From Tannerellaceae bacterium (GTDB lineage Bacteria; Bacteroidota; Bacteroidia; Bacteroidales; Tannerellaceae), in the NCBI GenBank assembly GCA_031273385.1, contig JAISRY010000096.1, positions 1 to 15,620 of the forward strand: 15,620 bases of DNA, written 5' to 3'. Below, in pieces: positions 5,943 through 14,982 of this stretch (within the stretch, counting starts at the first letter, position 1; the number at the start of each line of letters is the position of its first letter). The notes below the pieces were generated by a model. That model ran no database searches and was not told the origin of the DNA. It saw only the letters and a program-made list of their open reading frames with translations. A program made the translations under genes and the position numbers.

Positions 5943-6737
5943 ATGATTAAGACTTCTTTATTGATTTCTACCTACAATTGGAAAGAGGCTTTGCACCTTT
6001 CCCTTTCAAGCGCATTCAAACAGGCCGTATTACCTTGTGAGATCCTTGTCGCAGACGACGGGTCGCGCGACGATACTCGCCGGCTTATCGACGGAATGAG
6101 GGAAATCTCCCCCGTCCCCATCGTCCATGTATGGCACGAAGACACCGGATTCAGGCTGGCCGGCATACGGAACAAAGCCATTGCGCAAGCATCGGGGGAT
6201 TATATCATCCAGATCGACGGCGATATTGTCATGAAGCGGTATTTCATCTCCGATCACCTGGACTTGGCGGAGAGAGGGTATTTTATCTGCGGCAGCCGGG
6301 TCAGGCTATCTCCCCGGAGCACCCAACGGCTACTGGAAAAGGGCAGTGAGATAGGCCGCTTCCAGGAGTTCAACATCAACAACCTGCGCTCAAAGATCAT
6401 CCGGCATTACCTGGCCGACCGCTACGCCAAAGGAAACATCATGCGCCTCCGCGGGTGTAACATGTCTTTCTGGCGGGAAGACCTGATCGCCATAAACGGC
6501 TACAACGAACAGTTCACCTCCTGGGGACACGAAGACGCCGAACTGGCCTACCGCCTCTTCTTCTCCGGCATACAAAAGCGCTACCTGAAAATGGGCGGCG
6601 TAGCCTACCACCTCGACCACCCCTTCAACTCCAGGGAAAAAGAAAGGGAGCACTTCAGCATCGTCGAACAACTGAAAGAAGCAAAGACCAGCTGGGTAGA
6701 AGACGGGATAGACAAATATCTTCGAGTTGAGAATTGA
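5943..6737 (+). CDS. Glycosyltransferase family 2, with galactosyltransferase-type C-terminal segment
   Basis: A 264-residue GT-A enzyme. TSLLISTYN (4-12), ADDGSRDDT (37-45) and the metal-binding D92-G-D94 are classic GT2 features. RGCNMSFWREDLIAINGYNEQFTSWGHEDAEL (170-201, key residues Gly195, Glu197, Asp198) matches the C-terminal segment shared with galactosyltransferase and chondroitin-polymerase-type enzymes. HLDH at 223-226 is probably a further metal or donor ligand. It likely adds one sugar of the LPS core. No membrane segments are seen, so it is not a polymer-exporting synthase. The last residues and the TGA stop are encoded by the first arm of the inverted-repeat element starting at 6721, so the native C-terminus may have been replaced by repeat-derived sequence (LRVEN). 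It is the last gene of its operon. Confidence 0.9.
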   Translation: MIKTSLLISTYNWKEALHLSLSSAFKQAVLPCEILVADDGSRDDTRRLIDGMREISPVPIVHVWHEDTGFRLAGIRNKAIAQASGDYIIQIDGDIVMKRYFISDHLDLAERGYFICGSRVRLSPRSTQRLLEKGSEIGRFQEFNINNLRSKIIRHYLADRYAKGNIMRLRGCNMSFWREDLIAINGYNEQFTSWGHEDAELAYRLFFSGIQKRYLKMGGVAYHLDHPFNSREKEREHFSIVEQLKEAKTSWVEDGIDKYLRVEN

Positions 6738-6911
6738 GAGTTGAGAGTTGAGAGTTGGGGGAAGCCCTTATCTTCAAAGGCGCTCTTAAGAATCTTAAGA
6801 GGCTTAAGGAGCTTAAGAGGCTTAAGGGCGCCTTTGAAGATCAACTCTCAACTCTCCACTCTCAACTCTCAACTCGAAGATCAACTCTCAACTCTCAATT
6901 CTCAACTCGAA
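6721..6911. repeat. Nested inverted-repeat element between convergent operons
   Basis: The outermost 30 bp (6721-6750) are a perfect inverted copy of 6882-6911. The left arm is a 7-bp-period tandem of GAGTTGA (five units, 6724-6758). The right side has the complement TCAACTC as five units (6841-6875) and, after GAAGA, four more (6881-6908). Inside lies a second perfect 14-bp inverted repeat, ATCTTCAAAGGCGC (6770-6783) against 6828-6841. It encloses five CTTAAG sites at exactly 9-bp spacing (6785-6826). A 40-bp offset duplication is visible on the right (6836 and 6876 both begin GAAGATCAACTCTC). The element can fold on either strand and lies between two converging genes, so a bidirectional terminator role is plausible. 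There are no long T-tracts. The stops of both flanking genes fall within it. Confidence 0.9.
6785..6826. repeat. (CTTAAGNNN)5 tandem repeat, copy 1
   Basis: CTTAAG starts at 6785, 6794, 6803, 6812 and 6821, an exact 9-bp period, with variable trinucleotides AAT, AGG, GAG and AGG between. CTTAAG is itself palindromic. It forms the loop of the inner 14-bp inverted repeat. The preceding CAAAGGCG (6775-6782) and the order of the first units match a second copy at 14694-14749. Confidence 0.85.
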
Positions 6912-7940
6912 TTTGGCCAGGTTGCCTTTGTGGTCGGTGGGCCATACGCTGCGGGGTTCTATGAATTCGTCGGCGGCGTCGGGGGGGGATATTTTTCCGT
7001 ATAGGACGGAGGCGGGGGGGCCGACGATGTGGGCGGATGTTAGTTTGAGGCCGGGGTGGGGGGAGTAGTAGATGAAGTCGATGCGGTCGCGTTCGTCGGC
7101 GTCGGGGACGCAGTGGAGGCTTTCGAGGCGTGCTGCCGTGTTGCCTGCCGGATAGGTGAAGCCGGGATGGGTGACGGCGTTGGGGTGGCATTGGCGGTAG
7201 GTGTCGATATAGCCGGCGGCCTGTAGCATCAGGGAAACGTCCCAGTCGACGACGGCTCCCCCGTGACAACGCATATCTTTTGTATCTTCCCGCCAGTCGA
7301 GGTGCGACGGCTCGTTGAAGTCGCCGCCGAGGATGACGATATGTCCTTTCGCCGTTTCGCGTTCGGCGTCTGCAAGGAAGCTGCGGGCGTATTCGTCGCG
7401 GAAACCGTCGCGGTTGACGGCCAGGATGGAGTCGGGATCGGTGACGGGCGCATCAATCTTCTTCCAGGTCATCGCGCTGGCGCCCCGCGGCAGGTAGCAG
7501 GCATAATGGAGGTGATCCATGTGGGCGGAATAGGCGGTAACGATCCGTCCGCTTACGTCCAGTTGCGCTTTCAAGAGGGGGCGGTGGCGCTCTTCGGTCG
7601 GGAGGAGAAGCGTGGTGTTGGCCAACGGGTATTTGGCGAGGATGCCGACTTGGGCGTTCTTGTCGTCGCCGAAGTAGGTTTTTCCCCGCTTCTTCAGTTC
7701 TTCGACGAGCCAGGGGACGAACGGGTGTTCGCTTCCGGCGTTCAGTTCACACAGGAGAACGATGTCGGGGTTTGTCTGGACGACGAGGTCGACTACTCCT
7801 TGCGGCGCGCCTTCCACGTTCGCGCCCTGTACCCAGAGGTTCAATTGCAGAACCGTCAGTTCCCTGTCCCGCTCATTTGAGCAGGATAGGGAAAAGAGGG
7901 TAAACAGTACCGTTAAAAACAGCAGTTTGTATACGTTCAT
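6888..7940 (-). CDS. Secreted lipoprotein of the endonuclease/exonuclease/phosphatase family
   Basis: From ATG at 7940 the protein has 350 residues. An in-frame TTG three codons upstream is a less likely start. Residues 1-20 form a lipoprotein signal ending FSLSC, with Cys20 as lipidation site followed by the acidic SNERDRE, so surface or periplasmic anchoring is expected. The EEP fold motifs are complete: QLN (32-34), CELN with Glu65, AHMDH with His140, GGDFN with Asp207 and Asn209, RIDFIYY with Asp288, and TDHKG with Asp336 and His337. This indicates an active metal-dependent phosphodiesterase or phosphomonoesterase. The substrate (nucleic acid, phospholipid or phospho-sugar) is unresolved. 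It follows susD by 21 bp and is the only enzyme in the Sus-type operon, so it probably processes the imported ligand. The C-terminal FELRIES and TGA stop lie in the outer arm of the inverted-repeat element. Confidence 0.88.
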   Translation of the reverse strand: MNVYKLLFLTVLFTLFSLSCSNERDRELTVLQLNLWVQGANVEGAPQGVVDLVVQTNPDIVLLCELNAGSEHPFVPWLVEELKKRGKTYFGDDKNAQVGILAKYPLANTTLLLPTEERHRPLLKAQLDVSGRIVTAYSAHMDHLHYACYLPRGASAMTWKKIDAPVTDPDSILAVNRDGFRDEYARSFLADAERETAKGHIVILGGDFNEPSHLDWREDTKDMRCHGGAVVDWDVSLMLQAAGYIDTYRQCHPNAVTHPGFTYPAGNTAARLESLHCVPDADERDRIDFIYYSPHPGLKLTSAHIVGPPASVLYGKISPPDAADEFIEPRSVWPTDHKGNLAKFELRIES

Positions 7941-7961
7941 ATTATTCAATAGATGATTTGC

Positions 7962-9497
7962 CTACTTTAAAATCCACATCAGTTCGTTCACGTCGTCGTT
8001 CCCTCCGAACTGGCGTTGTACGGCTTCTTCCACGTTTTCGCGGTTGTAGTCGTATTCGCGTTGTTCGTACATCCAGCGCATGGGCATTTTGTCGGGGACG
8101 GTATTGAGGTTGGTTTCCGGATTGATGGGCAGCGCCGGATAGCCGGTGCGCCGGTACTCGTAATAGTTGTCCCAGGTGTAGTGCATGAAATTGGCGAGGT
8201 ACTTTTGTGTGATGATCTTGTTGAGATCGCTTTCAAAGGAGCTTTCGCTTTTGCCGAGCTGGATCGCGGGGCTGGCGAGGAACGCCTGGATATAGTCGCC
8301 GGTGATGGGGCGTCCGTGATGGTAGGCCTCGTCGTTCGGCGTATTGTCGGTGGTAAACTTCATACTGGCTTCGATGGCTTTATGGTAATACACCGTCGGG
8401 TCTTCGTTGATCCACTTGCGGAGGCAGGCTTCGGCGAGGATGAAGTTCTGTTCGGCATAACCCAGGCGGACGGTCGGTTCGCCGGTTTCGAGTTGGGTGT
8501 AGCGCGTGTTGATATTGGACAGTTCGCCTGCGGTAAAGAGGCTGCCGATATCGCCAAAGGAGCGCGACGGGTCGATGCCGACGTAGGCGTCCCAGTCGTC
8601 CGCCGCTACGCCGGCGGCCGTTTTCGCGGTTGCCGGTTGTGCGTAGTAGAAGAGCCGGTAATCATTGTACTTTTTCAGCGTGTCGATCACCATGGTGGTC
8701 ACCATCGGATAGGGGACGAAACGGTTTTTCGTCACGTTCACCGGATGGATTTGCGAAGCCTTTGTGCCGTAGACCAGCTGGAAGTTGTCGCCGTTGGAGG
8801 CAAAGAGGGAACGACTGCCGACGAGTTGTGCAAAGCGCTGCTTGACGTTCAGGTCGGTGTCGGACTCTTTTTTCGACAGGTTGATGAGTACTTTCAGGTG
8901 GAGGGCGGTCGTTGCCTTTTTCCACTGCTCCAAATTCCCATCGTATATGATATCCCCGTCAAACGCCCGGGTAGCGTTGGAGAAATGGGTGTAGGCGGCT
9001 TCCAGGTCGGCAAGGATATTGAGCATCACCTCTTTCTGGGTATCGTATTTGGGCTTGGTCACGCCCTCTTCCCCTTTCAGGGCATCGCTGTAGGGGATGT
9101 CGCCCAGGTCGAGCGAGGTGTTGAAGAGGCGGAACGCCTTGATGAACAAAGCCAGCCCCTCGTAGGCATCCTTATCTATATCGGCAGCCAGCTCAACCAT
9201 TTTCAGGCAGTTTGTCAGGCCGGTGTAGATATTCAGGCCGGTTCTGCCGAAGCGGTTGTATTGATTCGCTTCCATCACTTCTCCCCATGCGATATGTTTG
9301 CTTACGAGCATATCATAGAAATAACCTTTGTTATCGGATTTACCGACCGTTGCTTTGATCTGCCCCGTCGCTAACATGGCGGAGGTGGAAGAGGTCGGGT
9401 TGTCGGGGTTGGTATTGATCGCGTCGAAATTGCTACACCCTCCGCATACCAGCAGGAAGAGGGCAAGGATTGTGCAATGATAATATATTCTTTTCAT
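7962..9497 (-). CDS. SusD/RagB-like nutrient-binding outer-membrane lipoprotein
   Basis: A 511-residue lipoprotein with signal peptide MKRIYYHCTILALFLLVCGGC; Cys21 is the lipidation site. The mature start, CSNFDAINTNPDNPT, is typical of SusD-like families, most like the SusD_2-type group. Helical TPR-like segments follow, for example ALFIKAFRLFNTSLDLGDIPYSDAL near residue 120. The C-terminal part (KYLANFMHYTWDNYYEYRRTGYPALPINPETN, then DKMPMRWMYEQREYDYNRENVEEA) is the characteristic conserved end of these proteins. SusD caps the SusC channel on the cell surface and captures substrate. The ligand cannot be inferred from sequence. The start is 12 bp after the susC stop, the normal susCD arrangement, and the phosphoesterase gene follows after 21 bp. 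Confidence 0.95.
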   Translation of the reverse strand: MKRIYYHCTILALFLLVCGGCSNFDAINTNPDNPTSSTSAMLATGQIKATVGKSDNKGYFYDMLVSKHIAWGEVMEANQYNRFGRTGLNIYTGLTNCLKMVELAADIDKDAYEGLALFIKAFRLFNTSLDLGDIPYSDALKGEEGVTKPKYDTQKEVMLNILADLEAAYTHFSNATRAFDGDIIYDGNLEQWKKATTALHLKVLINLSKKESDTDLNVKQRFAQLVGSRSLFASNGDNFQLVYGTKASQIHPVNVTKNRFVPYPMVTTMVIDTLKKYNDYRLFYYAQPATAKTAAGVAADDWDAYVGIDPSRSFGDIGSLFTAGELSNINTRYTQLETGEPTVRLGYAEQNFILAEACLRKWINEDPTVYYHKAIEASMKFTTDNTPNDEAYHHGRPITGDYIQAFLASPAIQLGKSESSFESDLNKIITQKYLANFMHYTWDNYYEYRRTGYPALPINPETNLNTVPDKMPMRWMYEQREYDYNRENVEEAVQRQFGGNDDVNELMWILK

Positions 9498-9509
9498 GTC
9501 TGTACTGTA

Positions 9510-12500
9510 TTAAAAGTTTAACTTGAGATTCACACCGACGTACCGTATGGAGGGGGAATTGATATTCTCCGTATCGACATCCGGGTCGGAGAAGCGGAAG
9601 TCTTTCGTCCATATCAGCAGGTTTTGCCCGACGAGCGAAATCTCCGCCCCTTTTATCCTTAGCGACTGGCACAGGCTCGGCGGCAGGGCGTAGCCGAGCG
9701 ACAGTTCCCGCAGCTTGAAGAAGGTTTTATTCCGGAAGTAGCTCAATGGCCGGGTGTGGTTATCGTCCGTCACCCACCGGATGTATGTTTCGTACGATAC
9801 GGGGATGTCGTTGGGCGCAAAGACGCGCGTATCTTCGAGTATATTCCCGTCAAGGTCATACGTGACATCTCCTGAAACGATCTTCACGCCGGGCCCGATG
9901 AAATTGGTCAGGCCGTCTACCACTTCGTCGTAACGCCACTGGTTGTCCGAGTCGATATGCCTGCCGGAGTGCCAGAGGCGCGAGTCGATGTAGTCGAACA
10001 TGATTCCGCCCGTTCTCCCGTCTAAAGAGATATTGAGGTGGAGATTTTTGTACCTGAGGGTATTTGTCCATCCCCATACCCAATCGGGATTGGAGCTTCC
10101 CGCCAATGTCGGGTAGTCGCTTTTCCTTGGCCATCCGTTGTAATTGATCAGGTTTCCGTCCGGGTCTTTTTCCAAATCGTATACCTCTACCCACCACCAG
10201 TCTGCACCGGCCGTTAGCCATGGCTTCTTAGTCGAATACATGTCGTCGAGCTTGTGGTAATAGTAGCGGTCTAATGCCCAGTTAAAGGTGGAGTTCCAGG
10301 TAAAGTCCTTGCCTTTGAAGACGTCGCCGCCCAGCGTAAATTCCACGCCCCGGCTCAACTGCTGTTCGCCGAAGTTGATCAGTGTGGATTCAAAGCCGCT
10401 GGCATAACTCATGCTGGCGTTCCGCTGTAGGTCGTACGACAGCTTGTTGTAATAGGCTACGTCGAACTTCAAGCGGTTGTTGAAGAAACGGAAATCCATC
10501 CCGATCTCGTATCCTTTGGACGAGCGCGGTTTGAGAGAGACGTCGCGTATGGAGCCAGGGTAAAAGGTCGCCGTCATATCTCCCCAATAGTTGCGGGATA
10601 CGGAATAGGACTGGTTGATATCATAGACGCCGGCCGGGTATTTGGTTTGAGTCCACGAGCCGCGTACTTTCCAGAAATTGAACACTTCGGGCAGGGGAAT
10701 AAATTCCGACAGGACGAGGCTTCCCGATACTGACGGGTAGAAATAGGATCGTTCGGATTCGGCGAGGGTCGATACCCAGTCGTTTCTTCCCGTCACTTCA
10801 AGGAAGAGCAGGTTTTTCCATGACCCGCCGACCTTCCCGTACAGACTGTTTGTCTGTTGTTTGACAACGGAGGAGGAGGTTGTGGCCGGGTCGATGGAGG
10901 CGTTGAGGGAGTAAAAGCCCGGCAGGTTCAATCCGTTGCTGGTCGAGGAAATATGTTCGTTGTTTTCGCGGAAATAGATAGAGCCTCCCAGGAAACCGTT
11001 TACATTAAAGTCTCCCCACTTTTTATCCGCCATCAACAACAGGTCGTCGTTCGTACTGTAACCGGAGAGATCCGTCAGTTGATACTGCCCTTTCAGGTTA
11101 TTTCTCGTACTGATCGGGCTTTTCGCCTCTGTCCGGCTGCGGTAGGAGTCCAGCCCGACACGCGCCAGTACCTTTAGCCATCCGGTGAGATCGTAGGTAA
11201 GGTTGAAATAACTGTTCGTCAGGTCGTAATGGTTTCCGTTCGTTTTTGCGTTAGCGAGGAAGTAGGGGTTGTCGTACCAGTATTCGTCCATCCAGTTTTG
11301 TTCGGAATGTTCTTTCCCGGCTCTCCAATAGTTCTTATAATCGCGGAGGTCATATTCTGCGCCCGTCCAGATCAGCAGGTTGTAGAGGAAGCCCCCTGTG
11401 CCGTACCCCGTGCCGAGATCGTTGGAATAAAAGCTCTTATTGTAGGTGACTCCCGCGTCGAGGTGGAATTTGTTCCAATCCATTTCACCGCCTACGGAGA
11501 AGGTTACTTTTTGCTGGTCGGTATTGGGATACTGTCCCTTGTTATAGACATGGTTTAACGACGTGCGGACGCTTCCGTACTTGCCTTTCTGTGCGATACT
11601 AATGTGATTATTGGTAACGAGCGCCTGTTCGAGGAAATTTGTAAAATTATCTTTCCCGGCAGACGTGAGCGGCATCTCTCTCCATTCGTAGGTATAGGGG
11701 TCGTACTGCACTGCCGTACGGCCGATGTCGAGCTTGTCGCCCCAGACGTAGTCGCCCGCGCCATACCGTCCGTTGCCTCCCGAACTGTAGGCGGTCTGTA
11801 CTTCGGGTATCTTGAGGAAACCGGCATGGAACATGGTGTTGCTGTTGACGGTAATGTCGAGCCCCTCTTTCGATGCCTTCTTGGTGGTTACCATAATTGC
11901 GCCGTCGCCGCCGCGTGAGCCGTAGAGCGCCGAGGCGGTAGAGCCTTTCAGGACGTTGACGGATTCGATATCGTCGGCGGGTATGTCATTTAGCCCGACA
12001 TTGTAGTGCGGCACGCCGTCGACGACAAGCAGTGGCGTGCTGCCGCGTAGCGTCAATTCCGGCGTGGCGGCAAACTCTGTGCTGTTCTTGATGTTCAGCC
12101 CGGCGATCTTGCCGGTGAGCGAAGTGGCTACGTTGGCGCCCTTGACGGAAGCGATCTGTTCGCCGCTTACTTTCTGTACGGCATATCCCAACGCCTTTTC
12201 TTCGCGCCGTATACCGAGGGCGGTGACCACTACTTCGGAGATGATCCGGACATCTTCCTTGAGCTGGATATTGATCACGATGTTGTTTCCGATATTGATC
12301 TCCTGCGTGATGTATCCGATATAGGAGACGACGATGGTGGAATTGGGCGAAAGCTCGAGGTCGAACTCGCCGTCCATGCCGGCTATTGTGCCGTTGGCGC
12401 GGCTGTTCTTCTCGATGATGTTAGCTCCGGTCACCGGTTCGCCCGCCTCGTCGACAATGACGCCCGTCACTTTACGGGGGCCGCCGGCGACGGGCGTTTC

Positions 12501-12845
12501 GGGCGTGCGCGCCTGGTTGCTGATGGTGATCGTGTTGTTCTCGCGGCTAAAATTCAGCTGTGTCTGCCGCGTGATGGCGGCCAGGACGGTGTTGAGCGGC
12601 GTGGCGGAGAAATTGAGCGTCACGCGCTGTCCGGCGACGACCTGCTCACTGTAAAAGAACTTCAGCCCCGTTTGTTCGCCGAGGGAGGCGATCACCTTTT
12701 CCAACGGTTGGTTTTGCACATTGATCGTGACATTCCCTGAGGCAGACGGCTGGGCGGCCATGAGTTGCACGCCGCAGACCATTAAAAAAACGAAAAAAGC
12801 ATAACGGTACTTTTCCGCGTCCATTATTCGCTTGATAATATTCAT
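9510..12845 (-). CDS. SusC/RagA-family TonB-dependent transporter with STN signalling domain
   Basis: The 1111-residue protein has a signal peptide ending near AA-Q32. A secretin/TonB N-terminal (STN) domain spans about 37-110, a carboxypeptidase-regulatory-like beta domain about 125-196, and a TonB-box-like EVVVTALG about 204-211. The plug domain (about 220-325) contains LLVVDGVPH, DDIESVNVLKGSTASALYGSRGGDGAI. A 22-strand-type barrel ends in NF at the C-terminus, the usual aromatic outer-membrane signal. It imports a ligand captured by SusD using TonB energy. The STN domain marks it as a transducer-type transporter that signals to a FecR anti-sigma factor, and the FecR and sigma genes lie just upstream. 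A second ATG eight codons in (MDAEKYR) is an alternative start. Length is normal for the family; no frameshift was noticed. Confidence 0.95.
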   Translation of the reverse strand: MNIIKRIMDAEKYRYAFFVFLMVCGVQLMAAQPSASGNVTINVQNQPLEKVIASLGEQTGLKFFYSEQVVAGQRVTLNFSATPLNTVLAAITRQTQLNFSRENNTITISNQARTPETPVAGGPRKVTGVIVDEAGEPVTGANIIEKNSRANGTIAGMDGEFDLELSPNSTIVVSYIGYITQEINIGNNIVINIQLKEDVRIISEVVVTALGIRREEKALGYAVQKVSGEQIASVKGANVATSLTGKIAGLNIKNSTEFAATPELTLRGSTPLLVVDGVPHYNVGLNDIPADDIESVNVLKGSTASALYGSRGGDGAIMVTTKKASKEGLDITVNSNTMFHAGFLKIPEVQTAYSSGGNGRYGAGDYVWGDKLDIGRTAVQYDPYTYEWREMPLTSAGKDNFTNFLEQALVTNNHISIAQKGKYGSVRTSLNHVYNKGQYPNTDQQKVTFSVGGEMDWNKFHLDAGVTYNKSFYSNDLGTGYGTGGFLYNLLIWTGAEYDLRDYKNYWRAGKEHSEQNWMDEYWYDNPYFLANAKTNGNHYDLTNSYFNLTYDLTGWLKVLARVGLDSYRSRTEAKSPISTRNNLKGQYQLTDLSGYSTNDDLLLMADKKWGDFNVNGFLGGSIYFRENNEHISSTSNGLNLPGFYSLNASIDPATTSSSVVKQQTNSLYGKVGGSWKNLLFLEVTGRNDWVSTLAESERSYFYPSVSGSLVLSEFIPLPEVFNFWKVRGSWTQTKYPAGVYDINQSYSVSRNYWGDMTATFYPGSIRDVSLKPRSSKGYEIGMDFRFFNNRLKFDVAYYNKLSYDLQRNASMSYASGFESTLINFGEQQLSRGVEFTLGGDVFKGKDFTWNSTFNWALDRYYYHKLDDMYSTKKPWLTAGADWWWVEVYDLEKDPDGNLINYNGWPRKSDYPTLAGSSNPDWVWGWTNTLRYKNLHLNISLDGRTGGIMFDYIDSRLWHSGRHIDSDNQWRYDEVVDGLTNFIGPGVKIVSGDVTYDLDGNILEDTRVFAPNDIPVSYETYIRWVTDDNHTRPLSYFRNKTFFKLRELSLGYALPPSLCQSLRIKGAEISLVGQNLLIWTKDFRFSDPDVDTENINSPSIRYVGVNLKLNF

Positions 12846-12893
12846 ATATTTGTAATTTAAGGAGTTGTTTGTACTTAATTAGAAGCAACTGCG

Positions 12894-12926
12894 TTCAATA
12901 CAAAGTGTCGAGCTTGGTGTATTGAA
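12894..12926 (-). promoter_or_regulatory. Inverted repeat in the susC leader
   Basis: TTCAATACA (12894-12902) and TGTATTGAA (12918-12926) are a perfect 9-bp inverted repeat. Allowing a 2-nt bulge, three more pairs (AAG/CTT) extend the stem, leaving a 7-nt loop. It ends 48 nt before the susC start. No T-tract follows on the - strand, so it is not a standard terminator. It could be an operator or an RNA structure in the susC leader. The rest of the 190-bp gap between fecR and susC holds no TAnnTTTG element on the - strand, consistent with use of the operon's own ECF sigma factor. Confidence 0.4.
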
Positions 12927-13035
12927 ACTATTTGAGGTAGGGGGGATCGGTATCCGGTCTTCCCTACGTTTTTTCCGGTTTGTTAGGAGGTGTCTTTCAT
13001 ATTGGGTACTTTTTAAGGGTGTTAAACATGATCGG

Positions 13036-14034
13036 TTATTCGTATAGGACAATGCTGTCCGCCTCTTTCCGGTAGTTGATGCCGGTCGTATAGTAAATAG
13101 AATTCAAGACGGCTTCGAGCGTTTTGTTGTCGTGCTCTCCGGAGATGTATTCGTTGTGCGCCTTTCCTTTTTGGAAGGTGATGGCGCAATCGTAGCGCCG
13201 CGACAGCTCGTTGACGACGCTTTGGATCGGCGTCTTGTTGAAGTATAATCCGCCGGAGATCCACGACTTGACGGATGCCGTATTCTCCCGTTTCTTATGG
13301 ATCTCGAGTGTCGTCTTGTCCAGCCAAAACTGTTCCCCGGGCGACACCTGCATCATGGCCTCCCCGGTCTCCACTTGCACCTTTCCCTTTTCGACCGTAA
13401 CGGAAATAAACTCGTCCTCTTCGTGCGCCTTGACGTTAAATGCCGTCCCGATCACCCGTATGACGGCATACCGCGTCTCTACGATAAATGGCTTATGCTT
13501 GTCGCGCGCCACATCGAAAAAAGCCTCCCCGTCGAGGCGGATCGTGCGGCTCTCCCTGTCGAACCGTTCGGGGTAGGCCAGCGAGGTGCCGGCATTGAGG
13601 ACGACGCGCGTCCCGTCCGCCAGTATTTTCTGCTCCTGCCTGCCCTTTTCCACCCTCGTTTCGGTATAAGGCAACTCTTGCTCCGCTTCCCCCGATGGGG
13701 AATAGAGAAGATAAAGCCCTGCGCCGGCAAGGAGAAGAAGGAAGACGGCGGCATACCGAAGGAGAGAGGGGAGGCGGAGGGTTTTCCTTTTCACAGGCGC
13801 CGCTGCCGGCTTCAGCCATTGCTGCATCTCCGCCTGCGAAAGGGAGCGGTCGTCCCCGCTGTCGGGGGTTTCCAACGCGTCGCTCCATACCTTGTCCATC
13901 ATCTCTTCTACCGCGCGTCGGACGTCGTCATCCTCTTTGACGCCGTCAAAGAGGGCGTGCGCGTCGGCCTCGCTATATACATTATATATATAGCGCGCGA
14001 CCATCCGGCGGGTATTTTCTTTCGACTTCGACAT
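13036..14034 (-). CDS. FecR family anti-sigma factor
   Basis: A 332-residue single-pass inner-membrane protein. Residues 1-80 are a cytoplasmic anti-sigma region with conserved W50 and W73. A hydrophobic helix spans about 91-111 (LLRYAAVFLLLLAGAGLYLLY). A periplasmic FecR domain covers about 127-235 (LADGTRVVLNAGTSLAYP, then RLDGEAFFDVA, then VIGTAFNVKA). A C-terminal DUF4974-like domain (about 262-331, GGLYFNKTPIQSVVNELSRRY) resembles STN and likely contacts the SusC signalling domain. In the known model it holds the ECF sigma factor inactive, or assists it, until the transporter signals. It lies 75 bp after the sigma gene and 190 bp before susC, the standard order. The start is ATG at 14034; there is no clear Shine-Dalgarno. 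Confidence 0.93.
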   Translation of the reverse strand: MSKSKENTRRMVARYIYNVYSEADAHALFDGVKEDDDVRRAVEEMMDKVWSDALETPDSGDDRSLSQAEMQQWLKPAAAPVKRKTLRLPSLLRYAAVFLLLLAGAGLYLLYSPSGEAEQELPYTETRVEKGRQEQKILADGTRVVLNAGTSLAYPERFDRESRTIRLDGEAFFDVARDKHKPFIVETRYAVIRVIGTAFNVKAHEEDEFISVTVEKGKVQVETGEAMMQVSPGEQFWLDKTTLEIHKKRENTASVKSWISGGLYFNKTPIQSVVNELSRRYDCAITFQKGKAHNEYISGEHDNKTLEAVLNSIYYTTGINYRKEADSIVLYE

Positions 14035-14059
14035 ACGTTTCTTTTCTCTTCGTATATAT

Positions 14060-14068
14060 AATACAAAG
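14060..14068 (-). promoter_or_regulatory. CTTTGTATT motif upstream of fecR, also upstream of susC
   Basis: On the - strand CTTTGTATT lies 25 nt before the fecR start. An identical 9-mer lies at 12897-12905, 51 nt before susC, inside the inverted repeat there. Both are on the coding strand of the sigma/FecR/Sus operon. They are candidates for a shared promoter element, but two occurrences is thin evidence and the spacing to the start codons differs. Confidence 0.25.
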
Positions 14069-14109
14069 GAAAAGGGGGAAGCTGGGATATGTTTAACGAT
14101 TTTTATGCA

Positions 14110-14667
14110 TTATCTCGCATATTTGGTGAAATAGGCGCGGATTACCTTTAGCGCGTCGGAGATATGTTGCTGGACGGTATAGACGGAGATACCGAGCTGG
14201 GCGGCTATTTCGCGGTGCGTTTTCAGCTCTTTGCGGCTCATTTCGAATACGCGCCTCTGCTGCTTTGTTAGCGCGGCGACGGCCTTTTCGAGCAGCAGCT
14301 CCATATCGGCGGAGAGGAGGGCTTCGTCGGTGTCGTCGGCGACGGGGAGGGCGTTGGCGAGGATGGCCTTTTTCATCTCCTGTTCGCGGTCGATCCCGGC
14401 GAGGAGATTCAATATCCTGTTGCGGACGATCGTATAGATATAGGGGGCAAAGGGAGCGTCGGGGTTGAGGAAACGCCGGTTTTGCCAAACGGAGAGGAAA
14501 GCGTCCTGGAGAACGTCCTTCGCCGCATCGTGGGATTTCAGAAACTGCATGGAGAAATAGATCAGCCTGTTCTTATACAATGCATATAATTCACAAAAAG
14601 CCGACTCGTCGTCTCCCAATACGCCAGCAATGAGTTCCCGCTCCAATTTCTGATCCGTCTTGTGCAT
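14110..14667 (-). CDS. ECF-type RNA polymerase sigma-70 factor
   Basis: A sigma factor of about 185 residues from ATG at 14667; an ATG at 14685 would add six residues (MTIFAA). Region 2 is clear: AFCELYALYKNRLIYFSMQFLKSHDAAKDVLQDAFLSVWQNR, followed by PYIYTIVRNRILN. After a linker rich in Asp and Leu, region 4 has LTKQQRRVFEMSRKELKTHREIAAQLGISVYTVQQHISDALK, a helix-turn-helix that would read the -35 region. It presumably directs transcription of susC, susD and the phosphoesterase, and is controlled by the FecR gene 75 bp downstream. I prefer the 14667 start because a perfect Bacteroides -7 box (TATATTTG) occupies the six codons between the two ATGs and would make the first one part of the promoter. 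The transcript might then be almost leaderless. Confidence 0.93.
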   Translation of the reverse strand: MHKTDQKLERELIAGVLGDDESAFCELYALYKNRLIYFSMQFLKSHDAAKDVLQDAFLSVWQNRRFLNPDAPFAPYIYTIVRNRILNLLAGIDREQEMKKAILANALPVADDTDEALLSADMELLLEKAVAALTKQQRRVFEMSRKELKTHREIAAQLGISVYTVQQHISDALKVIRAYFTKYAR

Positions 14668-14672
14668 AGCTG

Positions 14673-14680
14673 CAAATATA
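14673..14680 (-). promoter_or_regulatory. Bacteroides-type -7 promoter element for the sigma gene
   Basis: The - strand reads TATATTTG, a perfect TAnnTTTG. It lies five bases before the ATG at 14667. No TTTG box is seen at the expected 19-21 bp upstream; a CTTTGC occurs only 13 bp upstream. If used, the transcript would start at or next to the start codon. Confidence 0.45.
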
Positions 14681-14693
14681 GTCATTTTCTCCG

Positions 14694-14749
14694 CAAAGGC
14701 GGTATGTAAGAATCTTAAGAGGCGTAAGAATCTTAAGGGGCTTAAGGGG
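14694..14749. repeat. (CTTAAGNNN)5-type tandem repeat, copy 2
   Basis: After CAAAGGCG (14694-14701) come five units of 9 bp starting at 14705, 14714, 14723, 14732 and 14741. Their cores are TGTAAG, CTTAAG, CGTAAG, CTTAAG and CTTAAG. The first spacers are AAT then AGG, as in the copy at 6775-6826, and CAAAGGCG precedes both. The two copies are therefore homologous, differing by a 1-bp indel and point changes. Here the complementary right half of the inner inverted repeat is absent. It lies upstream of the sigma gene, directly behind its promoter. Confidence 0.8.
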
Positions 14750-14775
14750 ACTAATGATTATCTTACGGGGAACTC

Positions 14776-14806
14776 TTGTGCGGGTGCAATAGTTTTCTTA
14801 ATTTTG
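14776..14806 (+). promoter_or_regulatory. Promoter for the HU-like gene
   Basis: TAATTTTG (14799-14806) is a perfect TAnnTTTG -7 element. TTG at 14776-14778 is placed 20 bp upstream, close to the expected -33 box spacing. The predicted start, about 6-9 bp after the -7 box, is 14812-14815, exactly where the large palindrome begins. The resulting leader would be about 170 nt. Confidence 0.5.
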
Positions 14807-14814
14807 TCGGGACT

Positions 14815-14936
14815 AACTAATGGTCTCACAGCTGTGAACTGATCGTCTCACAAGGGTGAGACGATCGTCTCACAGCTGTGAGATGGAAGTCCCACTCTTG
14901 TGAGACGATTAGTTCACAGCTGTGAGACCATTAGTT
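14815..14936. repeat. 122-bp near-perfect palindrome
   Basis: The two 61-nt arms meet at 14875/14876. By hand pairing, 54 positions are Watson-Crick, 4 are G-T (G-U wobbles in the + strand RNA: 14841, 14855, 14865, 14867) and 3 are mismatches (14859, 14863, 14864). The outer 26 pairs and the central 8 are uninterrupted. Smaller hairpins nest inside: TCACAGCTGTGA occurs at 14826, 14870 and 14914, and an 11-bp stem with an AAGG loop spans 14841-14866. It can therefore be one long hairpin or a chain of five short ones. It ends 46 nt before the HU-like start. Confidence 0.95.
14823..14932. repeat. Five tandem 22-bp units with an 18-bp palindromic core
   Basis: Units start at 14823, 14845, 14867, 14889 and 14911 without gaps. 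The consensus core is GTCTCACAGCTGTGAGAC, a perfect 18-bp palindrome, followed by a 4-bp spacer GATC/GATT. Units 1 and 3 to 5 vary by a few bases, and unit 2 has AAGG in the centre. The 22-bp period is about two helical turns. The array is centred within the 122-bp palindrome. Confidence 0.85.
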
Positions 14937-14982
14937 GTTCGGGAGGAAAACAGTAGTTATTCACTAGCAAAATATTAATTGT

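Follow-up and report, generated by a model that had tools for sequence, protein, structure and literature searches.

A 22-bp-phased array of short palindromes beside an HU-HIG gene of a Tannerellaceae bacterium, probably a set of binding sites for the encoded protein

The palindrome and the adjoining gene

We analyzed a stretch of 15,620 nucleotides (contig JAISRY010000096.1 of GenBank assembly GCA_031273385.1; hereafter, the window) from a Tannerellaceae bacterium, focusing on a 122-bp palindrome that lies in front of a gene of the HU-HIG family. The palindrome is made of five short palindromes of the form YCAC-N4-GTGR that follow one another at a step of 22 bp, with half-sites starting at 14826, 14848, 14870, 14892, and 14914. 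The features at this locus, of which the box, the units, and the A-rich stretch were read from the letters, are listed below.

14799..14806, + strand: TAATTTTG, putative -7 promoter box
14815..14936, no strand: palindrome and array of five 22-bp units, with outer arms AACTAATGG and CCATTAGTT
14826..14837, no strand: unit 1, TCAC AGCT GTGA
14848..14859, no strand: unit 2, TCAC AAGG GTGA
14870..14881, no strand: unit 3, TCAC AGCT GTGA
14892..14903, no strand: unit 4, CCAC TCTT GTGA
14914..14925, no strand: unit 5, TCAC AGCT GTGA
14937..14982, + strand: A-rich stretch from the array to the start codon
14983..15600, + strand: HU-HIG gene, with an HU/IHF domain at about residues 31-120 and a MarR-like winged helix at about residues 134-204

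About its own center, the palindrome has 54 Watson-Crick pairs in 61 positions and four G-T pairs, which reproduces the 58 of 61 counted in the initial annotation, and the three failing pairs are A-A, G-A, and A-C. The same annotation stated that all non-Watson-Crick pairs are G-U wobbles in the plus-strand RNA; the four G-T pairs agree with this, and the A-C mismatch besides them does not. With a repeat finder, the arms reached 74 nt and were 82% complementary. When the array was matched against itself, an offset of 22 gave 47 of 66 positions (next best offset 34). The earlier proposal to compare the folds of the two strands was followed for 14800-14950, and both were far more stable than their shuffles (plus strand, -108.3 kcal/mol, z -16.4; minus strand, -91.4 kcal/mol, z -15.1; 0 of 200 shuffles equally stable in each case). 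An Rfam scan of the window gave no family above the threshold. No T run follows the palindrome in the sequence, so an intrinsic terminator, which had been doubted from the start, was ruled out.

The product of 14983-15600 matches the Pfam family HU-HIG (PF18291) with an E value of 5e-35 (120.7 bits vs. a cut-off of 26.2), and it also matches TIGR01201. Its structure model (predicted local distance difference test 88.5, predicted template modeling score 0.57) and the structure matches support an HU/IHF domain and a MarR-like winged helix, i.e., an HU fold followed by a winged helix, which is the architecture of PF18291. The gene had been described as HU-like and as divergent from its neighbor; both descriptions stand, the neighbor being a gene for an extracytoplasmic function (ECF) sigma factor at 14110-14685. 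The sequence TAATTTTG fits the Bacteroidetes -7 box TAnnTTTG, and we take it to be the -7 box of the HU-HIG gene. The array sits just 3' of this box, and repeated sites beside the promoter of the binding protein's own gene are one feature of an autoregulatory operator array.

The 22-bp period and its tie to the winged helix

To profile the period in relatives, DNA 5' of HU-HIG genes (hereafter, leaders) was taken from 40 named loci of Parabacteroides, other Tannerellaceae, Bacteroides, Phocaeicola oris, Candidatus Azobacteroides, and two Prevotellaceae. The window and 37 of these loci gave 38 usable leaders; L119 was dropped with its upstream DNA missing and L149 and L150 as partial, and for L146 and L148 the gene start was assigned manually. 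Within offsets of 12-40 over the 320 bp 5' of the gene, the strongest repeat offset was exactly 22 in 35 of the 38 leaders vs. 4 of 185 random windows from the same loci. Arrays precede most HU-HIG homologues, in other species as well, often with different letters and with the same layout. In L128, the best 22-bp window is a different repeat, closer to the gene than the palindrome. Mirror arms of 40 nt with at least 25 pairs were detected in 28 of the 38 leaders vs. 1 of 114 shuffles. The initial annotation had proposed a search of relatives for the same hairpin, and a conserved palindrome is supported there, the most conserved feature being the 22-bp period rather than the palindrome itself.

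The period was also found in two other sets. An order-wide set of 20 leaders (four loci already used and duplicates excluded; one of the 20 previously read) had 22 as the strongest offset in 15, and a further set from P. distasonis, Phocaeicola massiliensis, Bacteroides finegoldii, and faecal clones had it in 11 of 11, one of them (L283) weak. HU-HIG matches at E 1e-25 or better occurred in 10 of 149 genomes of the order-wide sample, and among the matches listed for a phylum sample, those running through the winged helix all came from the genome of the window (hereafter, the source genome). In P. distasonis, a human gut species whose HU-HIG protein has the accession WP_008779936.1, an HU-HIG gene and its array are located upstream of rpsL. 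The HU-HIG genes at three B. finegoldii loci (L278, L281, L277) adjoin DUF3874, VapE, and BT4734/BF3469 genes.

The position of the promoter box recurs with the array. An exact TAnnTTTG occurred 5' of the array, at a distance of no more than 45 bp, in 23 of 33 leaders (5 of the 38 were left out) vs. 16 of 660 shuffles, and 21 of the 23 boxes were 16-25 bp away. At the Azobacteroides loci L128 and L129, a TTAATTTTA-like, promoter-like stretch lies between the array and the gene, i.e., the array is upstream of it.

The arrays go with the winged helix. An offset of 22 was seen in 0 of 29 HU homologues in which the match stops short of this domain. Across the genomes G006 and G000, all five paralogues with full-length matches (L183, L184, L185, L187, L194) have arrays, with scores of 42-50 of 66, and arrays were also found at L186, with a broken frame, and L188, where the fetched piece is cut. 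Nine paralogues of these genomes, in which the match does not run beyond profile position 139, gave one weak 22 signal; some of the nine fetched pieces end near the match, and the proteins there may be longer. Over 30 arrays (L112, L116, L123, L125, L128, and L139 were left out of 36), motif similarity correlated with winged-helix identity at 0.52 and, with HU identity removed, at 0.36, values reached in 0 of 1000 permutations. The correlation with HU identity was 0.12 once the winged helix was removed. Of the two domains, it is mainly the winged helix that the motif letters track. Two G006 paralogues each match a dispersed set of their own and not that of the other.

Dispersed arrays in genomes

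A similarity search of the source genome, a Bacteroidales draft of 2.3 Mb and about 70% completeness, revealed related arrays at 12 further places on 11 contigs. No HU-HIG gene was detected at the 11 loci fetched around dispersed copies (profile search, frames of at least 60 amino acids). In the units of this genome, TCAC and GTGA are nearly invariant, and the cores (AGCT, AGGA, TCCT) and linkers vary, as counted over 58 windows, a few of which are outside the arrays proper. Around the dispersed arrays of the source genome, ACTAATGATTAGGTCGGGAACAACTAAT-like repeats were also seen (L027-L037).

A pattern search with spacings of 12-42 gave matches in 17 of 18 genomes of the genus. Five had 28 to 89 hits (both strands) vs. 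0 or 1 for the reversed pattern, and several had one or two hits, possibly by chance. In G011, G017, and G001, the reversed control (GTG-N4-CAC pairs) was about as frequent as the pattern or more so; these reversed matches may represent a different array motif or other tandem repeats. The pattern hit 148 times forward and 142 times in reverse in Phocaeicola oris, and in P. bouchesdurhonensis, arrays are distributed over one 3.7 Mb contig, at 10 places in addition to the leader. P. goldsteinii, whose own leader motif differs, had 0 hits with the motif searched. At the 52 dispersed loci that were fetched, 128 of 129 CACN4GTG pairs were spaced by 22 bp and one by 23. No frame of at least 100 amino acids crosses 51 of these 52 arrays (four genomes), i.e., they lie between genes. 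Ignoring frames that overlap the array, the flanking genes were divergent, convergent, and in the same direction in 16, 7, and 14 cases in three genomes, and in 4, 6, and 10 cases in two genomes.

We also considered the dispersed arrays as a conserved regulon and rejected this, as 127 neighbor proteins from 8 genomes gave one clear cross-genome orthologue (rlmH-like, 77% identity). The other seven cross-genome pairs, including sigma and FecR-like proteins, shared 20-41% identity. Array positions are unconserved between genomes, the rlmH-like gene excepted, so that constancy is a property of the leader array, whereas dispersed arrays come and go. In two species (L152 and L254), one shared gene with 77% identity, presumably rlmH, carries arrays of different families at its 3' end.

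In viral contigs, 108 stretches fit the pattern, and none of them encodes a relative. The eight matching records of a phage collection are faecal clones, the three fetched ones being marked unverified, and the 16 matching records of a plasmid collection are partly chromosome-like (one has mutL, rpsL, rpsG, and fusA); 11 of these 24 records were fetched. We therefore make no claim of carriage on mobile elements. Membership in a defense family was considered and is unsupported, as two proteins had no PADLOC match.

Interpretation and relation to known systems

Most probably, the palindrome is an operator array in which phased units are bound by the product of the adjoining HU-HIG gene. Each dimer of this protein would contact a single 22-bp unit, its two winged helices recognizing the half-sites, here TCAC and GTGA, and its HU body gripping or bending the DNA. 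Four to five such dimers, about two helical turns apart and on nearly one face of the DNA, would line up directly behind the -7 box and may repress or tune their own promoter. Every HU-HIG paralogue would have an array with letters of its own. In some genomes, more arrays sharing these letters are dispersed between genes; they may serve as additional sites in an architectural capacity, or they may be satellites that arose from the start of the gene. The 122-bp hairpin would then be a by-product of symmetrical, equally spaced units and shared outer arms. The initial annotation had listed binding by the neighboring protein among its options; this fits once the cruciform that it had in mind is replaced by a linear array of protein sites.

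Several observations weigh against this interpretation. Three leaders depart from the period (L123, with 23 bp; L125 and L139, with none), five of the 20 order-wide leaders lack the offset of 22, and five of the 15 positive ones are weak. Only 9 of the 38 leaders outscored all 98 controls under a detector of even-centered palindromic units, and the period is for this reason to be regarded as more general than the symmetry. L236 has no winged-helix match and yet a weak 22 signal, and the correlation between motif and protein comes partly from shared ancestry. No -7 box precedes the array at three Azobacteroides loci. Two further points concern the hairpin as RNA. Mismatches in the dispersed copies of the source genome are 25 G-T to 10 A-C, with copies uneven beyond chance (p 0.01), a lean that may reflect an effect at the RNA level or C-to-T mutation biased by strand; and in family A of G015, the cores of mirrored units pair better within arrays than between them (2.18 vs. 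1.38 of 4).

These two points favor a structured 5' leader RNA, in which the transcript starts at the array and a long hairpin controls the HU-HIG mRNA or binds the protein, as do the very stable fold of the plus strand and the position of the array, which begins near the expected transcription start in most leaders. There is a precedent in E. coli, where HU acts with naRNA4, an RNA encoded by REP325 (PMC6907758). We nevertheless consider this explanation unlikely. If a hairpin RNA were kept, G-U should exceed A-C on the transcribed strand; the arms of 32 oriented leaders (six of the 38 with poor arms dropped) have 108 G-T and 107 A-C mismatches, and the dispersed copies 52 and 54 in G006 and 49 and 39 in G015. 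In four of five families, core pairing was no better within arrays than between them. Because of this balance, the lack of a core gain, and the Azobacteroides arrays without a preceding box, the RNA argument fails as a general one. Only 6 of the 52 dispersed arrays have a -7 box nearby, and no Rfam family was matched. The strand bias that had suggested an RNA thus holds for the source genome and not for the leaders as a whole, and the leader RNA or small-RNA precursor first proposed takes second place as a general reading. Taken together, the mismatch and core-pairing results favor short sites on DNA.

The dispersed copies could instead belong to a mobile repeat, similar to repetitive extragenic palindromic (REP) elements or miniature inverted-repeat transposable elements, that spreads for itself, with HU-HIG as a helper or as the place of origin. 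Such a repeat would account for the 12, 10, and dozens of places in the source genome, P. bouchesdurhonensis, and Phocaeicola oris, for their unconserved positions, and for dispersed extragenic palindromes of the kind seen in REP elements. Two G015 copies (L173, L178) continue beyond the start codon of their cognate gene, and others reach back across its promoter region; in L178, at 1672-1845, the array is followed by 13 codons of a truncated HU-HIG start, which match this gene. On the other side, leader arrays occur without dispersed copies of their motif in the record searched: in five records from P. distasonis, Phocaeicola massiliensis, and B. finegoldii, the pattern found the leader array only in four and nothing in one. 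A REP-associated tyrosine transposase (RAYT) was sought as a partner and not found (0 matches to PF01797, Y1_Tnp, in the source genome, G000, about 70% complete). No target duplication was seen, without comparison of empty sites, and outer inverted arms are present. As an explanation of the leader array, a mobile repeat is improbable, and for the dispersed arrays it can coexist with operator binding. That the palindrome arose by chance or is a plain terminator is scarcely credible: long intergenic inverted repeats do occur, but the same period recurs before HU-HIG genes across species, and the palindrome has neither a T run nor an equally stable shuffle.

Known kinds of element include tandem operator arrays, REP elements, and the dispersed sites to which nucleoid proteins bind. 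REP elements and bacterial interspersed mosaic elements, with their RAYT transposase, are likewise families of dispersed extragenic palindromes; here, the layout is a fixed one of several 22-bp units, the partner gene encodes an HU-winged-helix protein, and Y1_Tnp was not found in the incomplete genome. Iterons and the ParR-bound parC are tandem sites about two helical turns apart beside the gene of their autoregulated binder, a resemblance that extends to the putative binder here. They differ from the present arrays, which have a chromosomal context, an HU fold, dispersed families, and one motif per paralogue. MatP (with matS), SlmA, and Noc each have many single chromosomal sites with well-conserved letters; many sites per putative DNA-binding protein are seen here too, although as arrays whose letters differ between paralogues and whose positions are unconserved. 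HU and naRNA4 also tie an HU protein to extragenic palindromes, but there it is the RNA of one REP element that acts with an HU lacking a sequence reader (PMC6907758), whereas here the letters follow the winged-helix domain and a general RNA-strand bias was not seen.

The window protein belongs to the HU-HIG clade by its Pfam match. Burroughs and colleagues (2017) reportedly predicted roles for this clade in the recognition of invasive DNA and in chromosome partition, and are not said to have described 22-bp arrays. Searches of the literature on HU-HIG, Bacteroidetes HU domains, and 22-bp or palindromic repeats of Bacteroides and Parabacteroides did not find the arrays, which is not to say that they are not in print, and no publication on the DNA targets of HU-HIG was found. 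We know of no HU protein with its own sequence reader that has a private family of 22-bp-phased arrays for each paralogue.

Several HU-HIG paralogues occur in gut Bacteroidales, and the arrays offer a specific candidate target for each of them. Paired with their cognate winged helices, they form a natural panel of motifs from which a recognition code might be learned. A protein that combines an HU body with a built-in sequence reader would unite general DNA packaging and addressed binding, which are usually separate in bacteria, and the gene and array of P. distasonis put an experimental test within reach. Tentatively, and as a possibility that we hold well below the operator array itself, HU-winged-helix proteins may be paralogue-specific chromatin proteins that form phased multi-dimer complexes on their own arrays, sense their own level at the promoter array, and tie the dispersed arrays together. 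New arrays would arise when the beginning of the gene is copied, and the protein would co-evolve with its letters as in an arms race or as a self-mark.

Elsewhere in the window, a SusC/SusD-like locus, the ECF sigma gene, a FecR gene, and an Exo_endo_phos gene occupy 6888-14685. Intergenic simple repeats with a CTCAACT unit at 6718-6911 have inverted arms of up to 40 nt that enclose 9-bp CTTAAGRR-type repeats. Close to the array, just before the start of the sigma gene, 9-bp repeats of the TAAGRRNCT type are present at 14698-14766, and the same family is found at 6778-6837.
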